A DNA stretch of 64,000 nucleotides from Syntrophobacteraceae bacterium. Lineage in GTDB: Bacteria > Desulfobacterota > Syntrophobacteria > Syntrophobacterales > Syntrophobacteraceae. The translations under genes and the position numbers were made by a program. Location of the stretch: the NCBI GenBank assembly GCA_031292215.1, contig JARLHO010000139.1, positions 29,915 to 93,914 of the forward strand, given 5' to 3'. Shown in pieces: positions 7,002 to 24,744 of the stretch. Below the pieces are notes generated by a model, which was not told where the DNA came from, did no database searches, and saw nothing but the letters and a program-made list of their open reading frames with translations. The number at the start of each line of letters is the position of its first letter. Within the stretch, counting starts at the first letter, position 1.

Positions 7002-8741
7002 TTATCTCCGTAGGGCTGGAAAATCCAGCATCGAAATAAACCTCCGGCTAAAATCGGGATGGGCCCCCAATTCCACCACCCGGATAATGGATGCGAGGCG
7101 CTCCATATCGCGCAGCATCTCCTGGCTGCGCACGACCAGGGCGGCGCCCGAAAGAGAGGAATTTCCAACGAAGGCGACCGGCCCCGAATAGTCCTGCGGC
7201 AGCAGTCCTATCCGTTTGAGGCTTTCAGGATTCAAGTGATAGCCAAAAGATCCGGCAACCGTTATCTGCTGGAGATCCGAGACGGAGCGGCCCGCTTCCC
7301 CCAGAAGCGTTAGAATGGCGGTTATCGCCGCCCCCTTCGCGAGCTGGACCTGGCGGATGTCCTTCTGGCTAATAAAGACATTTTCCGTAAGGAAGTAGCG
7401 GTCCCCCCGCAGCCTGTCGGAAAACCGCCCCGCGCCCGTGGTAAATGCCCCGCCCGGTGCGACCGCGCCGGTGCAAAGTAGAGCCGCGACAAGATCGACC
7501 AGGCCCGATCCGCAAATGCCTATGGGGGGCAAGGCTCCAATTGTGGTAAACCGCAGTTCCCCGTCGTCGCCAACCGTTACCGAGTCAATGGCTCCCGGGA
7601 CGGCCCGGCAGCCGCAGGAAATGTTCATGCCTTCAAGTGCTGGGCCCATCGCGCACGATGTTGCCACCAGCCGGTCCGGGCCCTCTATCAAGACGATTTC
7701 CCCGTTGGTCCCGATGTCGATAAACAGGGTGCAGGGGGGGGCGGACCGGTAATCGATAGCCGTTAGGCCCGCGATGATATCCGCGCCTACATAGGCTGCG
7801 GCCCCCGGCAAGAGTACGAGCCGTCCCTGCGGGGCTATCGGAAGGCCGAAGCGTTGCGCATCCAGGACGAGGGGCTTTAAAAATGCGGGGCGAAAAGGCG
7901 CAAGGGCCAAAGACAAGGGGTTTACGCCCGCCAGGATGTGGAGCATCGTGGAATTTCCGGCAGCGCTCATCAAATAGACCTGGTCCCGGCCCAAGTTCTG
8001 GCCAAGAGTTTGGTCCAGCATCGCCCCCAGCTCTTGTATGAGGGCTAAACGCAGGACCGAGAGGCCATCTCGCTCCCTGCGGCAATACTCTATGCGCGTG
8101 ATGACGTCGCCGCCGTAGGCCGTCTGGGGGTTTAGGGCCGAACTGCACCCGATGGTCTCTCCGGTATCCAGGTCGAACAGGCAAAGGGATAGACCCGTTG
8201 TCCCAACGTCCACTGCGGCCCCAAGGACCGGTTTGCCGTCGAATCGAACGTCGATGGCCTCGTCGCCAAAAAGGATGGCGGACGCATGATTGCTGTTTGC
8301 GTCCCAGCCGGCGATTTTATCTAGAAGCTGCGGGTCGCGAAGCCGAAAGGGAAGGGTTTCGGCATAGGGAACGGCGCTGCTATCCTTTTCGGGCAAAACG
8401 ACACGTTTTACGGGGCTCTCCAAGGCGACCTCGCGCAACCCGAAAGCGGATGCGGACTGAAGCCGCGTCCAGGAATCGCTAAGGGTAACGGCGATGTCGC
8501 CCGCGACTTTTGCCCTGCACGCCAGGCGGACCTTGTCTTCCTGCCCTTCCAGGAGTTTGCGCTCGATCTCGTCTGGCGGGCTCAACTCGCCGTGCGCGCT
8601 CACGCGACACTTGCCGCACACCCCGCGCCCGCCGCAGGTGGACTCGGCTTTCAATCCGCTCCGCCTGATGCACGACAGAAGGGTTTCCCCCTGCTCGGCC
8701 TCTACGGAAAATTTACCGCCGTTAAAGGTTACTTTCGGCAA
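7002..8741 (-). CDS. Corrinoid-reactivating 2Fe-2S/ASKHA ATPase (RACE protein, RACo-like)
   Basis: 579 residues. Plant-type 2Fe-2S ferredoxin domain at residues ~1-75 (STCGGRGVCGKCRV and RLACRA supply the cysteines). Then a linker, then a DUF4445/ASKHA ATPase domain (VDVGTTGLSLCLFDLDTGE, later LFIDIGTNGEIVL and AVPGAID). This is the architecture of proteins that use ATP to push low-potential electrons into inactive Co(II) corrinoid proteins, as RACo does for the corrinoid Fe-S protein. The start is a TTG at 8741 with GAGGAG five to six bases upstream, 14 nt after the DUF1638 stop; a farther ATG would overlap that gene. It is divergent from hgcAB with DUF1638 between. Which corrinoid protein it serves is inference; HgcA is a candidate. 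Confidence 0.85.
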   Translation of the reverse strand: MPKVTFNGGKFSVEAEQGETLLSCIRRSGLKAESTCGGRGVCGKCRVSAHGELSPPDEIERKLLEGQEDKVRLACRAKVAGDIAVTLSDSWTRLQSASAFGLREVALESPVKRVVLPEKDSSAVPYAETLPFRLRDPQLLDKIAGWDANSNHASAILFGDEAIDVRFDGKPVLGAAVDVGTTGLSLCLFDLDTGETIGCSSALNPQTAYGGDVITRIEYCRRERDGLSVLRLALIQELGAMLDQTLGQNLGRDQVYLMSAAGNSTMLHILAGVNPLSLALAPFRPAFLKPLVLDAQRFGLPIAPQGRLVLLPGAAAYVGADIIAGLTAIDYRSAPPCTLFIDIGTNGEIVLIEGPDRLVATSCAMGPALEGMNISCGCRAVPGAIDSVTVGDDGELRFTTIGALPPIGICGSGLVDLVAALLCTGAVAPGGAFTTGAGRFSDRLRGDRYFLTENVFISQKDIRQVQLAKGAAITAILTLLGEAGRSVSDLQQITVAGSFGYHLNPESLKRIGLLPQDYSGPVAFVGNSSLSGAALVVRSQEMLRDMERLASIIRVVELGAHPDFSRRFISMLDFPALRR

Positions 8742-8754
8742 TGGGCTCTCCTCT

Positions 8755-9453
8755 CTAGACTCCGCCCTGGATGGAGGAAAGGGTGTCCGGGGAGCCAAAA
8801 CACAGGTGAGTCAGATCGATTGTGGTAAACGGGGGAACGACGACGAAATAGTCCTCATCCCAGGGCCCTTCGAGAAGGCGCCGCAGGTACTGGTCTTTGC
8901 CCTGAAAAGTTACGAGCTCCAGCCGCAGAGTGGAGGAGATCTCGCGTAGCTCGGGCAGAAGACTCGGGATGTCGTAGGCGCCGGTGTCTATGAGGCCCAG
9001 AAATTTATAGTGTGCGAGCATTTTTCGGTAGACCCGCTCGGTTTTTTCCAGACCCATGCGCGCTACAGTCGCGTGGTATTCCTTCCAGATGTTTGCCTCC
9101 CCCTCCAGCCAGCCCCTGGTTAGGAAGTAGACTCCGCCGCCCTCAGCGCACCGCCGCTTGGCTTCCGCCGATCCAAGGAGCAAGGAGATGCAGTCGTCTA
9201 CTCGCGGTATGACCAACTGGTAATCCCCCGTCTTTAACCCGGTAAGAGCCCCGCCGCAAATCCCGAATCCAAGAAGTACCCTCTCTTTGCCGTTCATCTT
9301 GTCCAGCTCTTCCTGCAGCCTCTGGCGCAGCGAACTGGTTACGAGGTGCAGCCCGGATTCGATCCATGTAAAAGGATAAGGACAGTTCGTTTCGAGTGCG
9401 GCCTTCTCAATTTCATCTCGAATAGTGTTGCATGCAAGAACTACGGTTTCCAA
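8755..9453 (-). CDS. DUF1638 family protein
   Basis: 232 residues if begun at the TTG at 9453 (METVVLACNTIRDEIEKA after AAGGGG); a GTG at 9507 in the same frame lacks a ribosome site. DUF1638 proteins are often encoded beside corrinoid methyltransferase systems and corrinoid activators. The biochemical role is unsettled. Seen: LLGFGICGGALTGLKTGDYQLVIPRVDDC with conserved Cys residues near residues 83 and 105, and YFLTRGWLEG. It ends 14 nt before the corrinoid-activating ATPase, so the two are cotranscribed and lie divergently opposite hgcA. A part in handling metal or corrinoid for the activator is inferred. Confidence 0.8.
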   Translation of the reverse strand: METVVLACNTIRDEIEKAALETNCPYPFTWIESGLHLVTSSLRQRLQEELDKMNGKERVLLGFGICGGALTGLKTGDYQLVIPRVDDCISLLLGSAEAKRRCAEGGGVYFLTRGWLEGEANIWKEYHATVARMGLEKTERVYRKMLAHYKFLGLIDTGAYDIPSLLPELREISSTLRLELVTFQGKDQYLRRLLEGPWDEDYFVVVPPFTTIDLTHLCFGSPDTLSSIQGGV

Positions 9454-9567
9454 CGGTATAGCCCCTTTGCTTCCTGATTGGCAGATATTGTAACCTACCT
9501 GGACCACGCGTGCAAAATAACATATCGCCGAAATGACTCTACACGCGGGCTTTTAGATTTGCATGGC

Positions 9568-9673: not shown

Positions 9674-10876
9674 GTGAGGGACGCTCTTTTGAAAAAAATT
9701 GAAGAAAACGCTTGCTTGGAAAAGGCAGGGGAAAGCGCCGGGAGCCCTTTTACGGGACAGGCGGGTGCAAAGCCTTCCTGCTGAGCGCCCAAGCCGCTAA
9801 AGACCCGGGAGGGTCTTCCCCGTATCGAGCAGTCCTTCGTTTCAGGTTCTGTGGAAACAGACGCCGGCAAGGCGCCCCGTGTCGAGCCATGTTTGACTTG
9901 GCGGGACCGGCTTGGCGGCTGGAAAGTCCGGTGGTCCATTGGGCGCATGCGCTACCGGGTCGACCCCGGCCTCTACGCGCTGGGGAGCCCCGACCGGGAT
10001 TCCCCGGTTTTTGCCTCCGCCAATTTCAAAATGAGCTTCGATTGCCTGCGTAAATCTTTGGGTCCCGGCAGAAGCGGTTGGATACTGGTCCTTGATACCG
10101 AGGGGATAAACGTGTGGTGCGCGGCGGGGAAGGGGACCTTCGGGACAGCCGAGCTGGTGAAAAGGATCGAATCGAGCGGGCTCGCCCGGGTGGTGAACCA
10201 CAGAAAAATCATCGTCCCCCAACTTGGCGCCCCCGGGGTATGTGCCCGCGAAGTTAAAAAACTTTCCGGGTTCAAGGTGGTATTTGGCCCGGTTCGGGCC
10301 GAAGACCTTCCCCGTTTTTTGGCTTCGGGCATGAAAGCTGTGGCGGGCATGCGCATAAAGACATTTACGACCGGCGAGAGGATGTCGCTTGTCCCCGTCG
10401 AGATAGTGCATGCGATGAAGTCCTTCCTGCTGGTGCTGCCGTTCGTATTCTTTCTGAGCGGTTTTAGCGGGCGGGGAGGGTTCCTCTCTCATGCCTTAAG
10501 ACTTGGCGTGGTGTCGGCTCTCGGCCTTCTGGCGGCAATAGCTGCGGGCGCGGTTATAACACCGATTCTGCTGCCCTGGCTTCCGGGAAGGGCCTTTTCG
10601 CTTAAGGGCCTCTGGCCGGGGATCGCCTTGGCGCCGGTTTTTCTCCTTTTGCGCAATGTGTTGTGGGGGCTTTCTCCGGCGGGATCCCTTGAGATTTGCG
10701 CCTGGATGCTGCTGATACCGGCCCTTTCGGCTTACCTCGCGATGAATTTTACGGGGTGCTCGACTTACACCTCGCTTTCCGGGGTAAAAAAAGAGATGAA
10801 GTGGGCTGTGCCGGCACAGATTGGCGCAGTGGGGCTGGGCGTGGTTTTCTGGGTGGCTTCGATTTTTATCGGATGA
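9674..10876 (+). CDS. hgcA: HgcA, mercury-methylating corrinoid protein; probable selenoprotein
   Basis: HgcA carries the methylcorrinoid that methylates Hg(II). The signature NVWCAAGKGTFGT lies at about residues 146-158 and its Cys is the lower Co ligand. HRKIIVPQLGAPGV and FGPVRAEDLP complete the corrinoid domain. About five membrane segments follow from MKSFLLVLPFVFFLSGF on, with the family motif NFTGCSTYTSLSGVKKEM. Without UGA decoding, translation could begin no earlier than after 9784. Yet the family-like segment FVSGSVETDAG...VEPCLTWRDRLG spans the first ATG (9851) and continues upstream to PSC-UGA-APKP, at UGA 9782-9784. Reading that UGA as Sec gives 400 residues from GTG 9674. TTG 9689, with GAGGG eight bases upstream, is an equally good start. 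First gene of hgcA-hgcB-cupin. Confidence 0.88.
9800..9817 (+). promoter_or_regulatory. Candidate bacterial SECIS hairpin in hgcA
   Basis: AAGACCC-GGGA-GGGTCTT forms a perfect 7-bp stem with a 4-nt loop beginning GG. The stem starts 15 nt and the loop 22 nt after the in-frame UGA at 9782-9784. Known bacterial SECIS elements have a stem of about 4-16 bp, a small loop with G in the first two positions and 16-37 nt between UGA and loop. The fit is direct; function is inferred. Confidence 0.65.
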
Positions 10877-10883
10877 GGTTTTT

Positions 10884-11228
10884 ATGGGTAAACTGGTGTA
10901 TCTAAAAAATGTGGCGACCCTGCAACTAAACGTTGGGGCCTGTTCCGGGTGCGGGATGTGCGCTGTGGTCTGCCCCCGGGGAGTTTTGGAGATAGCGGGC
11001 GGGCATGCCCGGATTTTCGACAGGGACTCCTGTATCGAGTGCGGTGCGTGCGCCCTCAATTGCCCCGAGGACGCTCTCACGGTTCGGACCGGTGTCGGAT
11101 GCGCGTCCGCTGTGATATACAGCTCACTGGGCTTGAATTCCGGCTGCTGCTGTTCCATCGACCAATATGAAGCAAATGGGAAAAATTCCGCGGGGAAAAG
11201 TTCTGCGGGAAAAGGAGAATGCTGCTGA
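10884..11228 (+). CDS. hgcB: HgcB, ferredoxin partner of HgcA
   Basis: 114 residues. Two 4Fe-4S motifs: CSGCGMCAVVCP (~residues 20-31) and CIECGACALNCP (~50-61). In the second, IECGA is the HgcB variant motif. The C-terminus carries CCC (~residue 92) and ends in a CC pair, as in known HgcB proteins, where terminal cysteines handle Hg(II). HgcB reduces the HgcA corrinoid and may pass mercury to it. ATG 10884 lies 7 nt after the hgcA stop, with GGATGAGG overlapping that stop. The Lys/Gly/Ser-rich stretch before the final CC looks like a flexible arm. hgcA and hgcB are together necessary for methylation in tested species. Confidence 0.92.
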   Translation: MGKLVYLKNVATLQLNVGACSGCGMCAVVCPRGVLEIAGGHARIFDRDSCIECGACALNCPEDALTVRTGVGCASAVIYSSLGLNSGCCCSIDQYEANGKNSAGKSSAGKGECC

Positions 11229-11229
11229 T

Positions 11230-11544
11230 ATGAAACTTATCGAAATATTTGAAAACGGATTTTCGGATCTTAACTTCAGGAATTTTCTCGTCCACGACTC
11301 GCCCTATTTTAAGATACTCAATTTCAACTTTAAAGCCGGGCAGGAGCTTCCGGTACATTCACACGACCTGGATGGGCAGGTGAGTATCGTGATTCTGGAA
11401 GGTGAGGGGGAGTTTGTAGGAGAAAACGGCGCCGGCTTGCCCGCAAAGCCCGGGAGCGTGCTGGTTTCAGACATTAGCGAACCCCACGGCCTAAAAGCCT
11501 TGACCGACATGCGAGCGCTAGTCACAATCGCCCCGCCGATTTGA
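11230..11544 (+). CDS. Small cupin-domain protein
   Basis: 104 residues, single cupin fold. The first motif includes GQELPVHSHDLDGQVSIVILEGEGEF with two His and an Asp/Glu pair, and the second is KPGSVLVSDISEPHGLKAL. The His set suggests a bound metal ion. The ATG begins one base after the hgcB stop, with AAAGGAGA inside the hgcB end, so it is translated from the hgc mRNA. Function is unknown: it could be a metal- or small-molecule-binding accessory or an unrelated passenger. An earlier in-frame ATG (11167) overlaps hgcB and is rejected. Confidence 0.8.
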   Translation: MKLIEIFENGFSDLNFRNFLVHDSPYFKILNFNFKAGQELPVHSHDLDGQVSIVILEGEGEFVGENGAGLPAKPGSVLVSDISEPHGLKALTDMRALVTIAPPI

Positions 11545-19538: not shown

Positions 19539-20471
19539 TCAATTCACATCGGGCCGGGGATAGAGACCCGCGCGCTCGACGATTTCAGGCACCTTTTCTT
19601 CCCATTCGATGGCCATGATGTGGAAGCCCCGGATTCCAGGGCACTCCTTTAGTTCCTGAATCTGTTCCACCGCGATGTTTATCCCCTCCCGGGCCACGTC
19701 TTCTTTTGCCACTCCCTGGAGCCGCTTGATAATGGAGTCCGGAACGTCCATGCCGGGGACCCTGCTCTTCATGTATTTGGCCATGCCCACCGATTTCATG
19801 GGCGTTATTCCGGCAAGGATCGAAACCTTCTCATTTAGCCCGTGGTCAACGACCTGCCCCATCCACAATTTGAATTTTTCCATATTGTAGATGCACTGCG
19901 TCTGAATAAACTGGGCGCCGGCAGCGACTTTTTTGGCAAGACGAAGCACTCGGACCTCGAAGGGGTCGGCAAAAGGGTTTTCCGCCGCTCCGATAAACAT
20001 CTGAGGCCGCACGTCCATCTCGTGGCCGCTAAGCAGCTTCCCCTCATCGCGCATAAGCTTTACCGTCTGGATGAGTTGAGTCGAGTCCAGGTCGAAAACG
20101 TTGGCCGCTCCGGGGTGGTCGCCAAACCTTTGATGATCGCCCGTCAGGCAGAGCACGTTGTTTATGCCGAAAGCGCCCGCCCCGAGAATATCGCTCTGGA
20201 GTCCTATGCGATTGCGGTCCCGGGTCGTCATCTGGAGCACCGGTTCAAAGCCCAGTTGCTTTATACGGATGCACGAGGCCAGGCTCGACATGCGAACTAC
20301 CGCCGTCTGGTTATCCGTAACGTTAATGACGTCGATATAGGGGCCGACAATACGGGCCTTTTGGTCTACGAGCGCTCCATTGGCGCTTCGCGGGGGGCCG
20401 CATTCGGAGGTTACGGCCAGGTGGCCGGCAGCCAGAATTTTTTCCAATTTGCTGGGCGTCATGGCGCTCAT
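19539..20471 (-). CDS. metF: Methylenetetrahydrofolate reductase
   Basis: 310 residues, TIM-barrel MetF. Interconverts methylene- and methyl-tetrahydrofolate in the Wood-Ljungdahl methyl branch and methionine synthesis. Seen: TSECGPPRSANG near the N-terminus, DVINVTDNQTAVVRMSS, LQMTTRDRNRIGLQSDI, VLCLTGDHQRFGDHPGA and the folate region GAQFIQTQCIYNMEKF. The ATG overlaps the metV stop by 4 nt. As part of a MetF-MetV-MvhD set, electrons are probably exchanged through a heterodisulfide reductase-like partner encoded elsewhere. Confidence 0.92.
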   Translation of the reverse strand: MSAMTPSKLEKILAAGHLAVTSECGPPRSANGALVDQKARIVGPYIDVINVTDNQTAVVRMSSLASCIRIKQLGFEPVLQMTTRDRNRIGLQSDILGAGAFGINNVLCLTGDHQRFGDHPGAANVFDLDSTQLIQTVKLMRDEGKLLSGHEMDVRPQMFIGAAENPFADPFEVRVLRLAKKVAAGAQFIQTQCIYNMEKFKLWMGQVVDHGLNEKVSILAGITPMKSVGMAKYMKSRVPGMDVPDSIIKRLQGVAKEDVAREGINIAVEQIQELKECPGIRGFHIMAIEWEEKVPEIVERAGLYPRPDVN

Positions 20472-21136
20472 AGCCGGGATTCCTCCTTGGTCATTTTGCG
20501 CGGGCCGCCCTCTCGACTCGAAATCCAGTCTTTGGGGGGCGTGGGTTGTTCGAACCGCTTGAGTTCCCCCAGCCCTTTTAGCCGTTCATAGATCAGTTGC
20601 CATCCGCAGGCAACTTCCTTGTCGATTTCGCATTTTCCCTTCGAAGAGCCGCCGCAGGGCCCGTTCAAAAGCCGTTTGGAGCATCTGGAGATCGGGCAGA
20701 TGCCCCCGGTGGTGGCCAGGAGGCATGAGCCGCAGGCCTGGCACCGCTCGCTCCAAACACCCTTTTCATCGGTCACCCCGATAAAGCACGTATCCACGCC
20801 CGGGAAAATCCGCATCTTGTCGTAGGTCTCGGTCATAAACTGCACACCGGCGCCGCAGGCCAGGGACACAACCGCGTCGTAGTCTCCCACCCGGTCGCGT
20901 AATTCCCCGAGGTACTCCCTGTCGCACTGCCGGGTCAGGCTGACTTCGCCCACCTCCATTTTTTTGTGCTGCCTGGCAAAATACATTCGTAGGGCCGATG
21001 CCAGAATCTCCACCTCTTTTAAGCCGCCTGCCTCGCAAACCGCAACGCATCCGTTGCAACCCGCCACGAGGACCTTATCCAAATCCTTTATCTCCCGGAC
21101 GATTTCTTCGATTGGCTTAGGTCTTGCCATTATCAT
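20468..21136 (-). CDS. metV: MetV, zinc/iron-sulfur partner of MetF
   Basis: 222 residues. Matches the methylene-tetrahydrofolate reductase C-terminal family found as a separate MetV subunit in acetogens and sulfate reducers. Cys-rich motifs VAGCNGCVAVCEAGG (about residue 25), ERCQACGSCLLATTGGICP and LNGPCGGSSKGKCEID provide ligands for zinc or Fe-S clusters. Overlaps both neighbours by 4 nt (mvhD upstream, metF downstream), so all three are one translationally coupled operon. Confidence 0.9.
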   Translation of the reverse strand: MIMARPKPIEEIVREIKDLDKVLVAGCNGCVAVCEAGGLKEVEILASALRMYFARQHKKMEVGEVSLTRQCDREYLGELRDRVGDYDAVVSLACGAGVQFMTETYDKMRIFPGVDTCFIGVTDEKGVWSERCQACGSCLLATTGGICPISRCSKRLLNGPCGGSSKGKCEIDKEVACGWQLIYERLKGLGELKRFEQPTPPKDWISSREGGPRKMTKEESRL

Positions 21137-21570
21137 GCGGCTTTCTCCTTTTCCACCCCCTTGATTCGTATCGGATTGGGACCGAGCATTCTGACCTTCT
21201 CGGTCATCTCGCGGCTGATTTCGGCAAATCGGGGCCCTTCACCCGAGGACATGTTGTACATGGCGACCCGATCGGGCTCAAGACCTATGGTGGCGAGCAG
21301 TTTCCGTACGTATTCGACCCGCTTCCTGGCCCGTATGTTGCCCAATTGATATTTGCAGTCCCCTTCCATGCAGCCGGCGACAAAAACGCCGTCCGCCCCC
21401 TTCTCAAGAGCCCTTAGAAGATGTATGACCGCCACCCTGCCGGTGCACGGCACCTTGACGATCTTTATGCTGCTGGGATACGTGAGTCTCATCGAACCTG
21501 CCAGGTCCGCCGCAGCGTAAGCTCACTGGGTGCAGCAGAAGGCAACCACAATCGGTGAAAAGTTTTCCAT
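21133..21570 (-). CDS. mvhD: MvhD/FlpD-family electron-transfer subunit, selenocysteine-containing
   Basis: 145 residues read through an in-frame UGA at 21525-21523 (codon 16): MENFSPIVVAFCCTQ, UGA, AYAAADLAGSMRL. The family has FxCNWCxYxxADLAG at exactly this place, so the UGA stands where a Cys or Sec binds the 2Fe-2S cluster. The rest is typical: IKIVKVPCTGRV, KGADGVFVAGCMEGDCKY, NIRARKRVEYVRKLL. ATG 21570 has AAGGAG eight bases upstream. MvhD links heterodisulfide reductases to hydrogenase, formate dehydrogenase or MetVF; the neighbours point to MetVF. Without UGA decoding the cluster region would be lost. Confidence 0.92.
21493..21509 (-). promoter_or_regulatory. Candidate SECIS hairpin in mvhD
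   Basis: On the minus strand CGGACCT-GGC-AGGTTCG forms a 7-bp stem with one G.U pair and a GGC loop. The stem starts 13 nt and the loop 20 nt after the UGA. This is within the spacing known for bacterial SECIS elements and nearly the same design as in hgcA. Confidence 0.7.
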
Positions 21571-22092
21571 CGTGTCAGTCTCCTTAAAAAAAACATCGAC
21601 CGGAAATGCGATCGGCTCACCGGAAAAGCCGCCGGGCCGGCTCTGTTCGCACAGACATTGAAAAGCGCAGAGGGGCGACAAGAGGGAAACCGCGCCCCCG
21701 GATCGTTTATAATGGGGTAAAAACGCTCTCAAGGCGCCAAACCAGGCGCTTATAATGGCTCTTAGTCAAAAAAACGTGTGGGGATTGGAGCCAAGCGAAC
21801 CGGAGGAGGAAAAAACAGCGTTAGGATAGCTCCCGGAAAACTCCCTTAACAGGTGCTAAATATAGTTTAAAACCATTGTTTTGAAAAGAAAAAAACGTGT
21901 CGGGGGTTCACATGGCCAAAGCCTCTATTTCTTGGTGCAATACCTGTCGATTGCGCCTCCTGTCTTGACAGTCCGGCTCCGAGGTGGGAAAAGTAAGGGG
22001 AAAATATCTTATGAGGAAGCGCGAAAGTCCGGCGGCGGGTGCACGAGGCCCCGGGTTGCTTGCTCCTCTTTTTACGCAAAAGGATTGCGATT
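21571..22092. other. Divergent intergenic region between mvhD and cobM
   Basis: About 520 bases with no gene. A TTATAA-like AT patch near 21707-21716 could be a promoter toward mvhD. I looked for a cobalamin riboswitch (B12 box and GGTG/TCC core) ahead of cobM and did not find a convincing one. Confidence 0.5.
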
Positions 22093-22878
22093 ATGAAAGA
22101 TCCTGTAAGATTTGTCGGGGCGGGTCCGGGGGACCCCGAACTCATTACGGTAAAGGGGATGCGGCTGCTCCAGGAGGCCGATCGCGTCGTGTACGCCGGC
22201 TCCCTGGTTCCGAAAACTTTGCTGCAGTATTGCAGGGAGAATGTCTTGGCCTTTGACTCCGCTTCCCTGACACTTGCCCAGACTCATGCGCTCCTAAAGG
22301 AAGGATATATTGCGGGGGAAAAGGTCGTGAGGCTCCATACGGGAGACCCGGGCCTCTACGGCGCGCTCCACGAACAGATGGCGCTGTTGCACCGCGACAA
22401 TATCGCCTACGAGATCATTCCGGGAGTGAGCGCAGCTTTTGCCGCAGCCGCCGCCATGAACCGGGTGCTAACCATCCCGGAGCTCTCCCAGACCGTTATC
22501 CTGACGCGCCTTGGCGCGAGGACCCCTGTTCCCGGACGTGAAAAGCTGGCCGATCTTGCCGCGCACCGCGCCTCCATGGTCATATACTTAAGCGTGCAGC
22601 GCATCGAAGAGGTCGTGGGGCAACTGCGCGAGCATTACCCGGGAGATACTCCCGCAGTGGTGGCCTACCGCGTGGGGTGGCCGGACCAAAAGTTCCTCCA
22701 CTCGACCCTGGACGCTATCGCGGCCCGGGTGCGCGTTGAGCAAATCGGGCGCCAGGCGCTCATACTCGTTGGCGACGTGTTTGGAGAAAAGGCGCTGGAC
22801 GGCGAAGGGATCAAAAGATCGAAACTCTATGACGAATCCTTTAGTCATCAGTATCGAGATGCCGAAAAAACCGGGTAG
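22093..22878 (+). CDS. cobM: Precorrin-4 / cobalt-precorrin-4 C11-methyltransferase
   Basis: 261 residues, SAM-dependent tetrapyrrole methylase of corrin synthesis. VRFVGAGPGDPELITVKGM is the N-terminal SAM motif, VYAGSLVPKTLLQY is typical of CobM/CbiF, VRLHTGDPGLYGALHEQM and YEIIPGVSAAFAAAAAMN form the substrate region, and VAYRVGWPDQKFLHSTL is near the C-terminus. ATG 22093 with AAGGA upstream is chosen over an earlier in-frame ATG. First of three overlapping genes, cobM-cbiG-cobJ; the presence of CbiG indicates the anaerobic (early cobalt) pathway. Confidence 0.93.
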   Translation: MKDPVRFVGAGPGDPELITVKGMRLLQEADRVVYAGSLVPKTLLQYCRENVLAFDSASLTLAQTHALLKEGYIAGEKVVRLHTGDPGLYGALHEQMALLHRDNIAYEIIPGVSAAFAAAAAMNRVLTIPELSQTVILTRLGARTPVPGREKLADLAAHRASMVIYLSVQRIEEVVGQLREHYPGDTPAVVAYRVGWPDQKFLHSTLDAIAARVRVEQIGRQALILVGDVFGEKALDGEGIKRSKLYDESFSHQYRDAEKTG

Positions 22879-23920
22879 AGAGAAAACGGCGATTTTCGCC
22901 CTTACCCGCAAGGGGGCCGAACTGGCCGAGCGGATTTCGAGGCGGATGCCGGGGAGCCCCTGTTTTTGTCTCGAACGCTACGCGCAAAAACCGGGGATGA
23001 TTGCCTTTGCCCGCCTCTCGGATGCCTTTGGCTCCGCATGGCGAGAGTATGACGGGCTCGTCTGCATTATGGGCTGCGGTATCGCGGTCCGCATGGCGGC
23101 CCCCCTGCTAGCGCACAAGACCTGCGACCCCGCGGTCGTAGTCGTCGACCAAAACGGCGCCTTTGCCGTAAGCCTTCTTTCGGGCCATTTGGGCGGGGCA
23201 AACGAACTGGCCCGAAAGGTCGCAGATATTACCGGCGGCAGGGCCGTCATTACCACTGCCTCCGACATCCAGGGAAAGCTCGCAATAGACCTTGCGGTTA
23301 AAAGCGCCGGCCTGCGGATCGAAAACCTGGCGATGGCCGCAAGAATCCAGGCGGCCATTCTCGATGAAGAACCCCTGTGGATATTTGATCCCGACGGGCT
23401 CCTTTTGAGATATCTTCCGCCCGATCACGGTCTTCAGGTGGTCGAGGCGCCGGGAGATAGCGCTGCGTTTTCGGCAAGTCCCGGTATATGGGTCTCCGAA
23501 TTGCTAGCCCCCATGGGGGGGGAATGTCTCGAAGTCCGCCCGCAGAACCTGGTGGTCGGAGTCGGCTGCAACCGGGGGACGAGTTCGGAGGAAATAGTCG
23601 GGTTTATTAAAGAAAAACTTAAACAAAGCGGGCTTTCGCCCCAATCTATCAGAAATTTCGCAAGCCTGGACTTAAAGGCCGACGAGCGCGGGCTTTTGGA
23701 GGCGGTAAAAGTGTTTGACCGTCCCATTTATTTTTGCGCCCGCAGGGACATCGAGGACATTTTGGTCCCCAATCCGTCGGAAACGGTTGCCCGGCATGCA
23801 GGAGTTAAAAGCGTATGCGAAGCGAGCGCTCTTTGGAGTGCGGGGACGCGGGAATTGCTCGCGCCCAAAAGGAAAGCGGGCAACTGCACGATGGCGGTCG
23901 CCAGGGTAAGCTCTCGATAA
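22829..23920 (+). CDS. cbiG: Cobalt-precorrin-5A hydrolase CbiG
   Basis: About 363 residues from ATG 22829; ATG 22859 is an alternative. CbiG opens the delta-lactone and releases acetaldehyde in the anaerobic corrin pathway. N-terminal domain IFALTRKGAELAERI; core VCIMGCGIAVRMAAPLL; FAVSLLSGHLGGANELARKV; C-terminal domain VVGVGCNRGTSSEEIVGFI and IRNFASLDLKADERGL. Overlaps cobM by 50 nt and cobJ by 106 nt. Confidence 0.93.
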   Translation: MTNPLVISIEMPKKPGREKTAIFALTRKGAELAERISRRMPGSPCFCLERYAQKPGMIAFARLSDAFGSAWREYDGLVCIMGCGIAVRMAAPLLAHKTCDPAVVVVDQNGAFAVSLLSGHLGGANELARKVADITGGRAVITTASDIQGKLAIDLAVKSAGLRIENLAMAARIQAAILDEEPLWIFDPDGLLLRYLPPDHGLQVVEAPGDSAAFSASPGIWVSELLAPMGGECLEVRPQNLVVGVGCNRGTSSEEIVGFIKEKLKQSGLSPQSIRNFASLDLKADERGLLEAVKVFDRPIYFCARRDIEDILVPNPSETVARHAGVKSVCEASALWSAGTRELLAPKRKAGNCTMAVARVSSR

Positions 23921-24744
23921 TCGGACTGGGTCCGGGGGCGCGGTCCTACATGGCCCCGGAGGCCCTTGGCGCGCTGGGCGCCGCGCAAATCGTTCTGGGC
24001 TATAAGACCTACCTGGAGCTGGTAGGAGACCTTCTGCACGACAAAACCGTGGTTGCCGGCGCAATGAGAAAAGAGGTCGAGCGCTGCCAGGCCGCCATTG
24101 ACTTTGCCCTGGCCGGCAAAAACGTCGCCTTGCTCTCCAGTGGCGACGCCGGTATTTACGGGATGGCGGGGCTAGTTTTAGATATCTGCAGGCAAAAAGG
24201 CATCGATGTCTGGGAGTGGGATACGGACTTGAGCGGCGAGGCGCAACAGGGCGCAGAAGAGCAATGCGCGGGTGAGGCGCCCCGGGGCGCTCGCGGTTTT
24301 TTCCTGCGGGTGATTCCGGGGATTGCCGCCTTCAACGCGGCGGCCTCCATCCTTGGCGCCCCCCTCATGCATGACTTTGCCGCAGTCAGCCTAAGCGATC
24401 ATCTAACACCGTGGGAAGTCATCGAAAGACGGCTGCACGCGGCCTCAGAGGCCGACTTCGTCCTGGCGCTCTATAACCCCAGGAGCAAGAGCCGGCCGGA
24501 TTTACTCGAAAAGGCAAGGCAGATAATTCTTCGCAGCCGTTTGGCGCAAACTCCGGCAGGGATCGTTGGCAAGGCGATGCGCGAGGGGCAGTGGAGGCGT
24601 CTTTGCACCCTGGCAGATTTGCCCGTGGAGGAAGTGGACATGCAGACCGTAATAATTGTTGGAAACAGCCAGACCTATGTCTGGAAGGGCTGGATGATTA
24701 CCCCCAGGGGATACCTCGACAAATATGCGGTGGACGAGTCCTAA
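23815..24744 (+). CDS. cobJ: Precorrin-3B / cobalt-precorrin-3 C17-methyltransferase
   Basis: 309 residues if begun at ATG 23815. Tetrapyrrole methylase: LSIIGLGPGARSYMAPEA, VLGYKTYLELV, VALLSSGDAGIYGMAGLVLD, LSDHLTPWEVIERRLHAA, LALYNPRSKSRPDLL, TVIIVGNSQTYVW. Ring-contraction step of corrin synthesis (CbiH in the anaerobic route). The conserved domain starts about 31 residues after the ATG; the true start may lie further inside the cbiG overlap, but no better ATG or GTG is visible. A variable loop of ~24 residues (EAQQGAEEQCAGEA) is inserted before the VIPGIAAFNAAAS motif. Confidence 0.92.
   Translation: MRSERSLECGDAGIARAQKESGQLHDGGRQGKLSIIGLGPGARSYMAPEALGALGAAQIVLGYKTYLELVGDLLHDKTVVAGAMRKEVERCQAAIDFALAGKNVALLSSGDAGIYGMAGLVLDICRQKGIDVWEWDTDLSGEAQQGAEEQCAGEAPRGARGFFLRVIPGIAAFNAAASILGAPLMHDFAAVSLSDHLTPWEVIERRLHAASEADFVLALYNPRSKSRPDLLEKARQIILRSRLAQTPAGIVGKAMREGQWRRLCTLADLPVEEVDMQTVIIVGNSQTYVWKGWMITPRGYLDKYAVDES

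Follow-up and report, generated by a model that had tools for sequence, protein, structure and literature searches.

A predicted selenoprotein form of the HgcA gene with an N-terminal Cys-Sec pair in a Syntrophobacteraceae bacterium

Does a reading frame that is broken by one UGA codon encode a short leader peptide followed by a shorter HgcA, or a single HgcA selenoprotein? This question is raised by a locus in the 64,000-nucleotide stretch of DNA from a Syntrophobacteraceae bacterium (contig JARLHO010000139.1) that we analysed at its full length and that is called the window here. As the initial annotation had described and our re-reading confirmed, the frame that opens with GTG 9674 and ends at the stop codon TGA 10874-10876 has a single interruption, a TGA at 9782-9784, and the codon before it is TGC (Cys), which gives the peptide KPSC-U-APKP. 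The frame matches the profile NF040863 of HgcA, a protein that is required for the production of toxic methylmercury by bacteria, with 440.1 bits against a cut-off of 275, from frame residue 68 up to model position 324 of 325. Furthermore, the CFeSP-like corrinoid domain PF03599 was found in it with 49.9 bits, and its translation contains the cap helix GINVWCAAGKG with the conserved Cys. The coordinates of this and the other features are collected in Table 1.

Table 1. Features annotated in the window (positions counted from its first letter).
Feature	Positions	Strand	Basis or remarks
RACo-type corrinoid reductive activator, divergent from hgcA	7002..8798	-	PF14574, PF17651
DUF1638 protein between RACo and hgcA	8755..9507	-	PF07796, 140.8 bits
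Shine-Dalgarno-like GAGGGA	9676..9681	+	sequence; similar layout before TTG in L018 and L019
hgcA, predicted selenoprotein form	9689..10876	+	NF040863, cap helix, SD-like site; stop TGA 10874-10876
TGC TGA, Cys-Sec pair (predicted Sec codon UGA 9782-9784)	9779..9784	+	UGA in 42 other loci; Cys in homologues
SECIS-like hairpin	9800..9817	+	stem 9800-9806 / 9811-9817, loop GGGA 9807-9810
hgcB, dicluster ferredoxin	10884..11228	+	NF040864, 101.4 bits vs cut-off 99; Cys at GVGC, more Cys in tail
Small cupin-domain protein directly 3' of hgcB	11230..11544	+	Cupin_2, 27.9 bits vs cut-off 27.2
MvhD/FlpD-like predicted selenoprotein gene	21133..21570	-	CCTQ-U (CxxU), UGA 21525-21523

The initial annotation had also placed the family-like sequence FVSGSVETDAG after the UGA and before a first ATG at 9851. 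This sequence is indeed encoded 3' of the UGA, but the codon at 9851 is GTG. It is the next in-frame start after the UGA, with no in-frame ATG, GTG or TTG between the two, and conserved HgcA coding (QxFVxG) lies in this interval.

The same aligned UGA was found in 42 other loci, which makes 43 distinct loci counting the window. A search of 55 genomes of the class gave an HgcA-level match, that is, one of at least 117 bits, the remaining matches reaching at most 65 bits, in 27 genomes. Among these, 23 have the UGA, two have Cys-Cys (L038, L041), one has neither (L040) and one is cut off before the site (L043). A second search, in genome contigs, gave 38 loci: 22 with the UGA, 15 without it and one cut off (L065). 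At the site, two of these loci, L047 and L048, are identical in DNA sequence to L018 and L019 and were counted once among the 43. Judged by their record titles, nine of the 15 loci without UGA come from Bacteroidota, Armatimonadota, Bacillota, Synergistota and Spirochaetota, and two HgcA proteins of other phyla (L077, L083) do not have such an N-terminal tail.

Regarding the residue preceding the predicted Sec, it is Cys in 36 of the 43 loci, Gly in four, Thr in two and Ser in one, a count that is biased because the loci were chosen for having the UGA. The UGA is retained after Thr or Gly in L053, L057, L060, L027, L028 and L029. Thus, if Sec is inserted there, a direct Cys-Sec pair would not be strictly needed.

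The initial annotation had proposed that a Cys-Sec pair replaces Cys-Cys and that homologues with Cys at the UGA position would support it. In a protein search we listed 120 of the 7998 homologues scored and sorted the states of their tails by script. Among these 120 matches 63 begin after the site, one of them being the window's own short model. Of the 57 listed homologues that cover the site, 28 carry CC in their tail, 24 CxC and five neither. Cys-Cys is therefore the commonest state among them, although not the sole one, and this supports the proposed replacement. We also aligned the window protein with 26 of the 120 listed homologues, which had been picked leaning to CC (alignment A2). Three of the 26 begin after the site, and in this CC-leaning set the Sec column is Cys in 19 of the 23 that span it and Gly, Arg or Ser in the other four, so that Cys stands at the UGA position in part of the homologues. 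The Cys-type homologues of this alignment continue straight through the stretch 3' of the UGA position.

The relationship between both forms can be followed on a tree of 87 HgcA cores, which was built from the part of the protein after the site. On its 87 rows the UGA state requires ten changes and the Cys state eight, where for public proteins the Cys state means CC in the tail, the column itself not always being checked. The well-supported branches alone force at least eight and at least seven changes respectively. L072, L074, L075 and L076, with CC elsewhere in the tail, were scored as 'other', and L035, which is too short, was left out. Moreover, Sec and Cys forms occur as sister pairs, namely L020 (Sec) with P0007 (Cys), with support 100/96, and L037 (Sec) with L038 (Cys), with support 100/100. 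Sec and Cys forms of HgcA thus alternate on the tree, which means that they have been exchanged repeatedly. These sister pairs make the role of selenium testable.

In bacterial SECIS elements the apical loop starts with a G. The hairpin of the window, AAGACCC-GGGA-GGGTCTT, is as the initial annotation had given it: a perfect 7-bp stem with a GGGA loop, the stem starting 15 nt and the loop 22 nt after the UGA. Its conservation was examined in an alignment of 34 UGA loci made without regard to structure (A3), from which eight divergent UGA loci and L068 were excluded. The latter escaped our first cap-helix pattern and is absent from alignments A1 and A3, and it was included in the synonymous resampling. 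RNAalifold found the inner five pairs in these 34 loci; four of them are changed on both sides and two of 170 cells are broken. For the 7-pair stem 87.4% of the cells are paired, the two outer pairs being broken in 15 and 13 of the 34 loci. The covariation was 0.334 compared with 0.218 after shuffling (none of 500 shuffles reached the observed value), and a slid stem reached at most 0.226. Two of the five covariation measures were not clearly above the shuffles, namely the number of pairs in which both sides had changed (59 of 500) and that of additional pair types (93 of 500).

We also resampled the sequences, keeping the same peptide and redrawing the synonymous codons according to each gene's own usage. 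In the window, a hairpin of such energy, in a fitting place and with a G among the first two loop bases, appeared in 0.6% of 500 resamples. The observed hairpin was stronger than the average resample in 41 of the 43 loci, and in 29 it ranked among the best 5%, although the loci are related and a joint P across them would overstate the result. The minimum free energy by itself gave dinucleotide-shuffle z values near 0 in four stretches (-0.38, 0.04, -0.15 and -0.54). One UGA locus (L064) lacks a qualifying hairpin, and four others (L028, L031, L036, L068) have weak ones or one in another place. Among five Cys-Cys sites in four loci, a qualifying hairpin was found at one. Rfam over the window returned a tRNA as its sole match. 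The hairpin whose folding had been recommended as a check is conserved, covarying and rare in resamples, and we predict that it is likely the SECIS signal of this gene.

Regarding the start of the gene, TTG 9689 is likely the start codon rather than GTG 9674, because GAGGGA is placed 7 bases upstream of it and the related loci L018 (GAGGGA) and L019 (AAGGA) are arranged alike. GTG 9674 was set aside, as TTG 9689 with its SD-like site fits better. TTG 9689 lies 31 codons 5' of the UGA, and Sec would be residue 32. An SD-like 4-mer together with an in-frame start 5' of the UGA was found in 38 of the 43 loci; the first start 3' of the UGA has an SD-like 4-mer in 14 of the 43, at distances of 2 to 83 codons, in a lax test that favours the upstream side by counting any upstream start and only the first downstream one. 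Upstream of the pair the tail evolves rapidly (dN 0.64 and dS 0.65 between L017 and L018), and dN is well below dS in the hgcA core. Since the tail is so weakly constrained, dN/dS there adds little for the frame, whose main support comes from the Cys-Sec pair and the sequence after it. The pair itself lies about 60 residues N-terminal of the conserved PGLYAL block.

These observations bear on the best surviving alternative for the UGA, namely that it is a true stop, that a short leader peptide is made and that HgcA is restarted downstream, at GTG 9851 or later, as in many database models. Such a restart would agree with the profile match that begins only at frame residue 68, with the 63 of 120 listed proteins that begin after the site, with the tail-less HgcA of L077 and L083 and with the weakly constrained upstream tail. 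However, it would leave the conserved QxFVxG coding between the UGA and GTG 9851 untranslated, as the window has no in-frame start in this interval, and Cys homologues continue through this stretch. Moreover, the first start after the UGA varies widely in its distance and has an SD-like 4-mer in a minority of the loci, and the covarying hairpin would be left unexplained. We therefore consider a stop with restart very improbable.

An even less probable alternative is that the UGA is read as another amino acid (e.g. Trp in a changed code) or is leaky without Sec. Any readthrough would yield the same frame. Nevertheless, a single tRNA was found in the window, a tRNA-Trp with CCA anticodon, and the hgcA, hgcB and cupin genes all terminate in TGA, so UGA is not generally reassigned. 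In addition, homologues have Cys rather than Trp in this column, and both the hairpin and the Sec genes agree with Sec. Actually, all four genes named in the initial annotation, selA, selB, selC and selD, are present in the same genome: selA was found with 614 bits, selB with 362 bits and selD with 384 bits, as well as a tRNA-Sec with UCA anticodon. The selD gene has one TGA of its own. SelB was above the cut-off in 51 of the 55 class genomes. One of the 23 class genomes with the UGA, G046, has no full SelB match and has selA with 618 bits. Among the 36 genomes from which the other loci come, SelB was over the cut-off in 16 of 20 with the UGA and in nine of 15 without it, and it was not over it in the genome of L065; two further UGA genomes, G065 and G073, have likely SelB fragments. 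SelB is too common to serve as a discriminator of UGA and non-UGA HgcA and was rejected for this use, and its distribution agrees with Sec use without discriminating between them.

Finally, although the assembly is a draft in 177 contigs, it is extremely improbable that the UGA arose by a sequencing error or as a nonsense mutation in a pseudogene, because it recurs at one aligned position in 43 distinct loci, which excludes a read error, and the core has dN well below dS.

Taken together, the in-frame UGA of hgcA is very probably decoded as Sec, with the hairpin as its likely SECIS and an HgcA that would carry an N-terminal Cys-Sec pair. We prefer this reading because of the UGA itself, the covarying hairpin, the Sec genes, the 42 other UGA loci and the Cys in part of the homologues. 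The findings that the initial annotation had named as contrary to it were not encountered: the machinery is present, homologues extend upstream with the Cys motif and the recurrence of the codon speaks against an error in the reads. In the mechanism that we propose, SelB bound to the hairpin would bring the Sec-tRNA to the UGA and Sec would be inserted. The Cys-Sec pair would then be placed on the N-terminal tail of HgcA, where some close relatives have Cys-Cys.

Mercury and selenium have a very high affinity for each other. The Cys-Sec tail could act as a soft-metal arm, taking up Hg(II) or passing on the methylated product, a role to which we give about an even chance. It would work beside the corrinoid and the cysteines of HgcB, as a second, selenium-tipped arm. 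This role is suggested by analogy, because a similar job has been proposed for the tail of HgcB: according to passages of PMC7305189, Cys73 and the tail pair Cys94/Cys95 of HgcB may move Hg(II) or methylmercury, and in the model given there the cofactor and Cys73 are within reach of the HgcB tail.

The main rival to the mercury-arm role is that Sec is inserted and the pair is redox-active, forming a selenenyl-sulfide to protect or re-reduce the corrinoid centre, and is not a mercury ligand. We consider this possible, although clearly less probable than an even chance. Two directly adjacent residues would be unusual as a redox motif, in comparison with CxxU, which counts against it. Sec is also kept in seven of the 43 loci without a Cys directly before it, in a set that is biased as described above. 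On the other hand, a gene for a RACo-type corrinoid activator is oriented divergently to hgcA both in the window and in two relatives, and a passage of PMC13188914 deems a redox function likely for most uncharacterised selenoproteins.

More tentatively, and as a rather doubtful extension of the mercury-arm role, many deltaproteobacterial methylators might be selenium-dependent. A selenolate arm would swing between the corrinoid and HgcB and would have been switched repeatedly between Se and S, and the supply of selenium would set the level of full-length HgcA. If Sec is present in HgcA, work on the Cys-type protein omits a ligand that many uncultured methylators would have.

The partner protein HgcB was read at its GVG site with a pattern that allowed C, U, A, S or T there and that matched 60 of 68 loci, two of them being copies. 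The residue was Cys in all of the 60 loci read. Therefore Sec is not needed in the partner protein, and in this sample the Sec types of HgcB and HgcA do not occur together. Sec in the HgcB of the window was rejected, as its site is GVGC. The cupin gene has a homologue adjoining hgcB in L018 (91% identity), and one was also found within the fetched stretch of L020, L021 and L051.

On the other side of hgcA, the pair of RACo and DUF1638 genes was also found beside hgcA in L018 (the same as L047) and in L035, and the other fetched loci, many of them with short flanks, gave no match to either gene. This pair may be a re-activation system for HgcA. Cobalamin biosynthesis genes lie on the forward strand at 22039-24744, about 11 kb from hgcA, with CbiF and CbiH over the cut-off and a CbiG-like gene between them. 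In two other loci, L066 and L069, a short AbrB-like frame rich in Cys pairs was seen by eye 5' of a Syntrophus-like hgcA without UGA. It is perhaps a metal-sensing regulator.

The window contains a second gene with an in-frame UGA, which would encode an MvhD/FlpD-like selenoprotein. When it is read through, PF02662 is matched with 166.8 bits and the ATG is preceded by AAGGAG; a standard ORF call places its start 3' of the UGA (21133-21492). Next to it comes a gene at 20468-21136 whose protein has no NCBIfam match and is perhaps MetV-like, as in such clusters, and then a MetF-like gene at 19539-20471. The CxxU motif is listed for the MvhD/FlpD family in PMC13188914.

HgcA as a predicted selenoprotein is already in print. 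PMC13188914, a review of 2026, names HgcA (NF040863, motif CU, WP_250697417.1) among the predicted selenoproteins, together with HgcB (NF040864, motif GVGU), and refers to Haft and Gwadz 2023 for this. Likewise, according to a passage of PMC11588087 (2024), some homologues of hgcA and of hgcB may code for selenoproteins. By our reading of the reference numbers, PMC2398784 is the other HgcA source of PMC13188914, and a term search in it gave no match, so that we do not cite it for HgcA. Beyond the passages of PMC13188914 and PMC11588087 mentioned here, our analysis adds the covarying SECIS candidate, the breadth of the UGA in one class, the repeated exchange of Sec and Cys, the likely TTG start and the database entries that are probably too short. 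Regarding the latter, hgcA genes that carry the UGA are probably often annotated too short, as 63 of the 120 listed proteins start after the site. Three of these proteins (P0004, P0009, P0010) match, by eye, L018, L019 and L035, whose DNA carries the UGA, and they are the ones checked at the DNA level.

Compared with the known systems, the HgcA with motif CU of PMC13188914 belongs to the same family and has the same motif, with the same inference from Cys in homologues, and in the passages of that review nothing essential differs from our case. The Sec-type HgcB listed there with GVGU is the partner in the same pathway and has a predicted Sec at a conserved Cys, whereas the HgcB of the window has Cys at this place. 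The Cys-type HgcA proteins (P0007, P0062, P0079, P0120) are of the same family and have Cys-Cys at the columns of the Cys-Sec pair, without UGA recoding. The MvhD/FlpD selenoprotein (PF02662) is an unrelated protein, with CxxU in contrast to the CU of HgcA.
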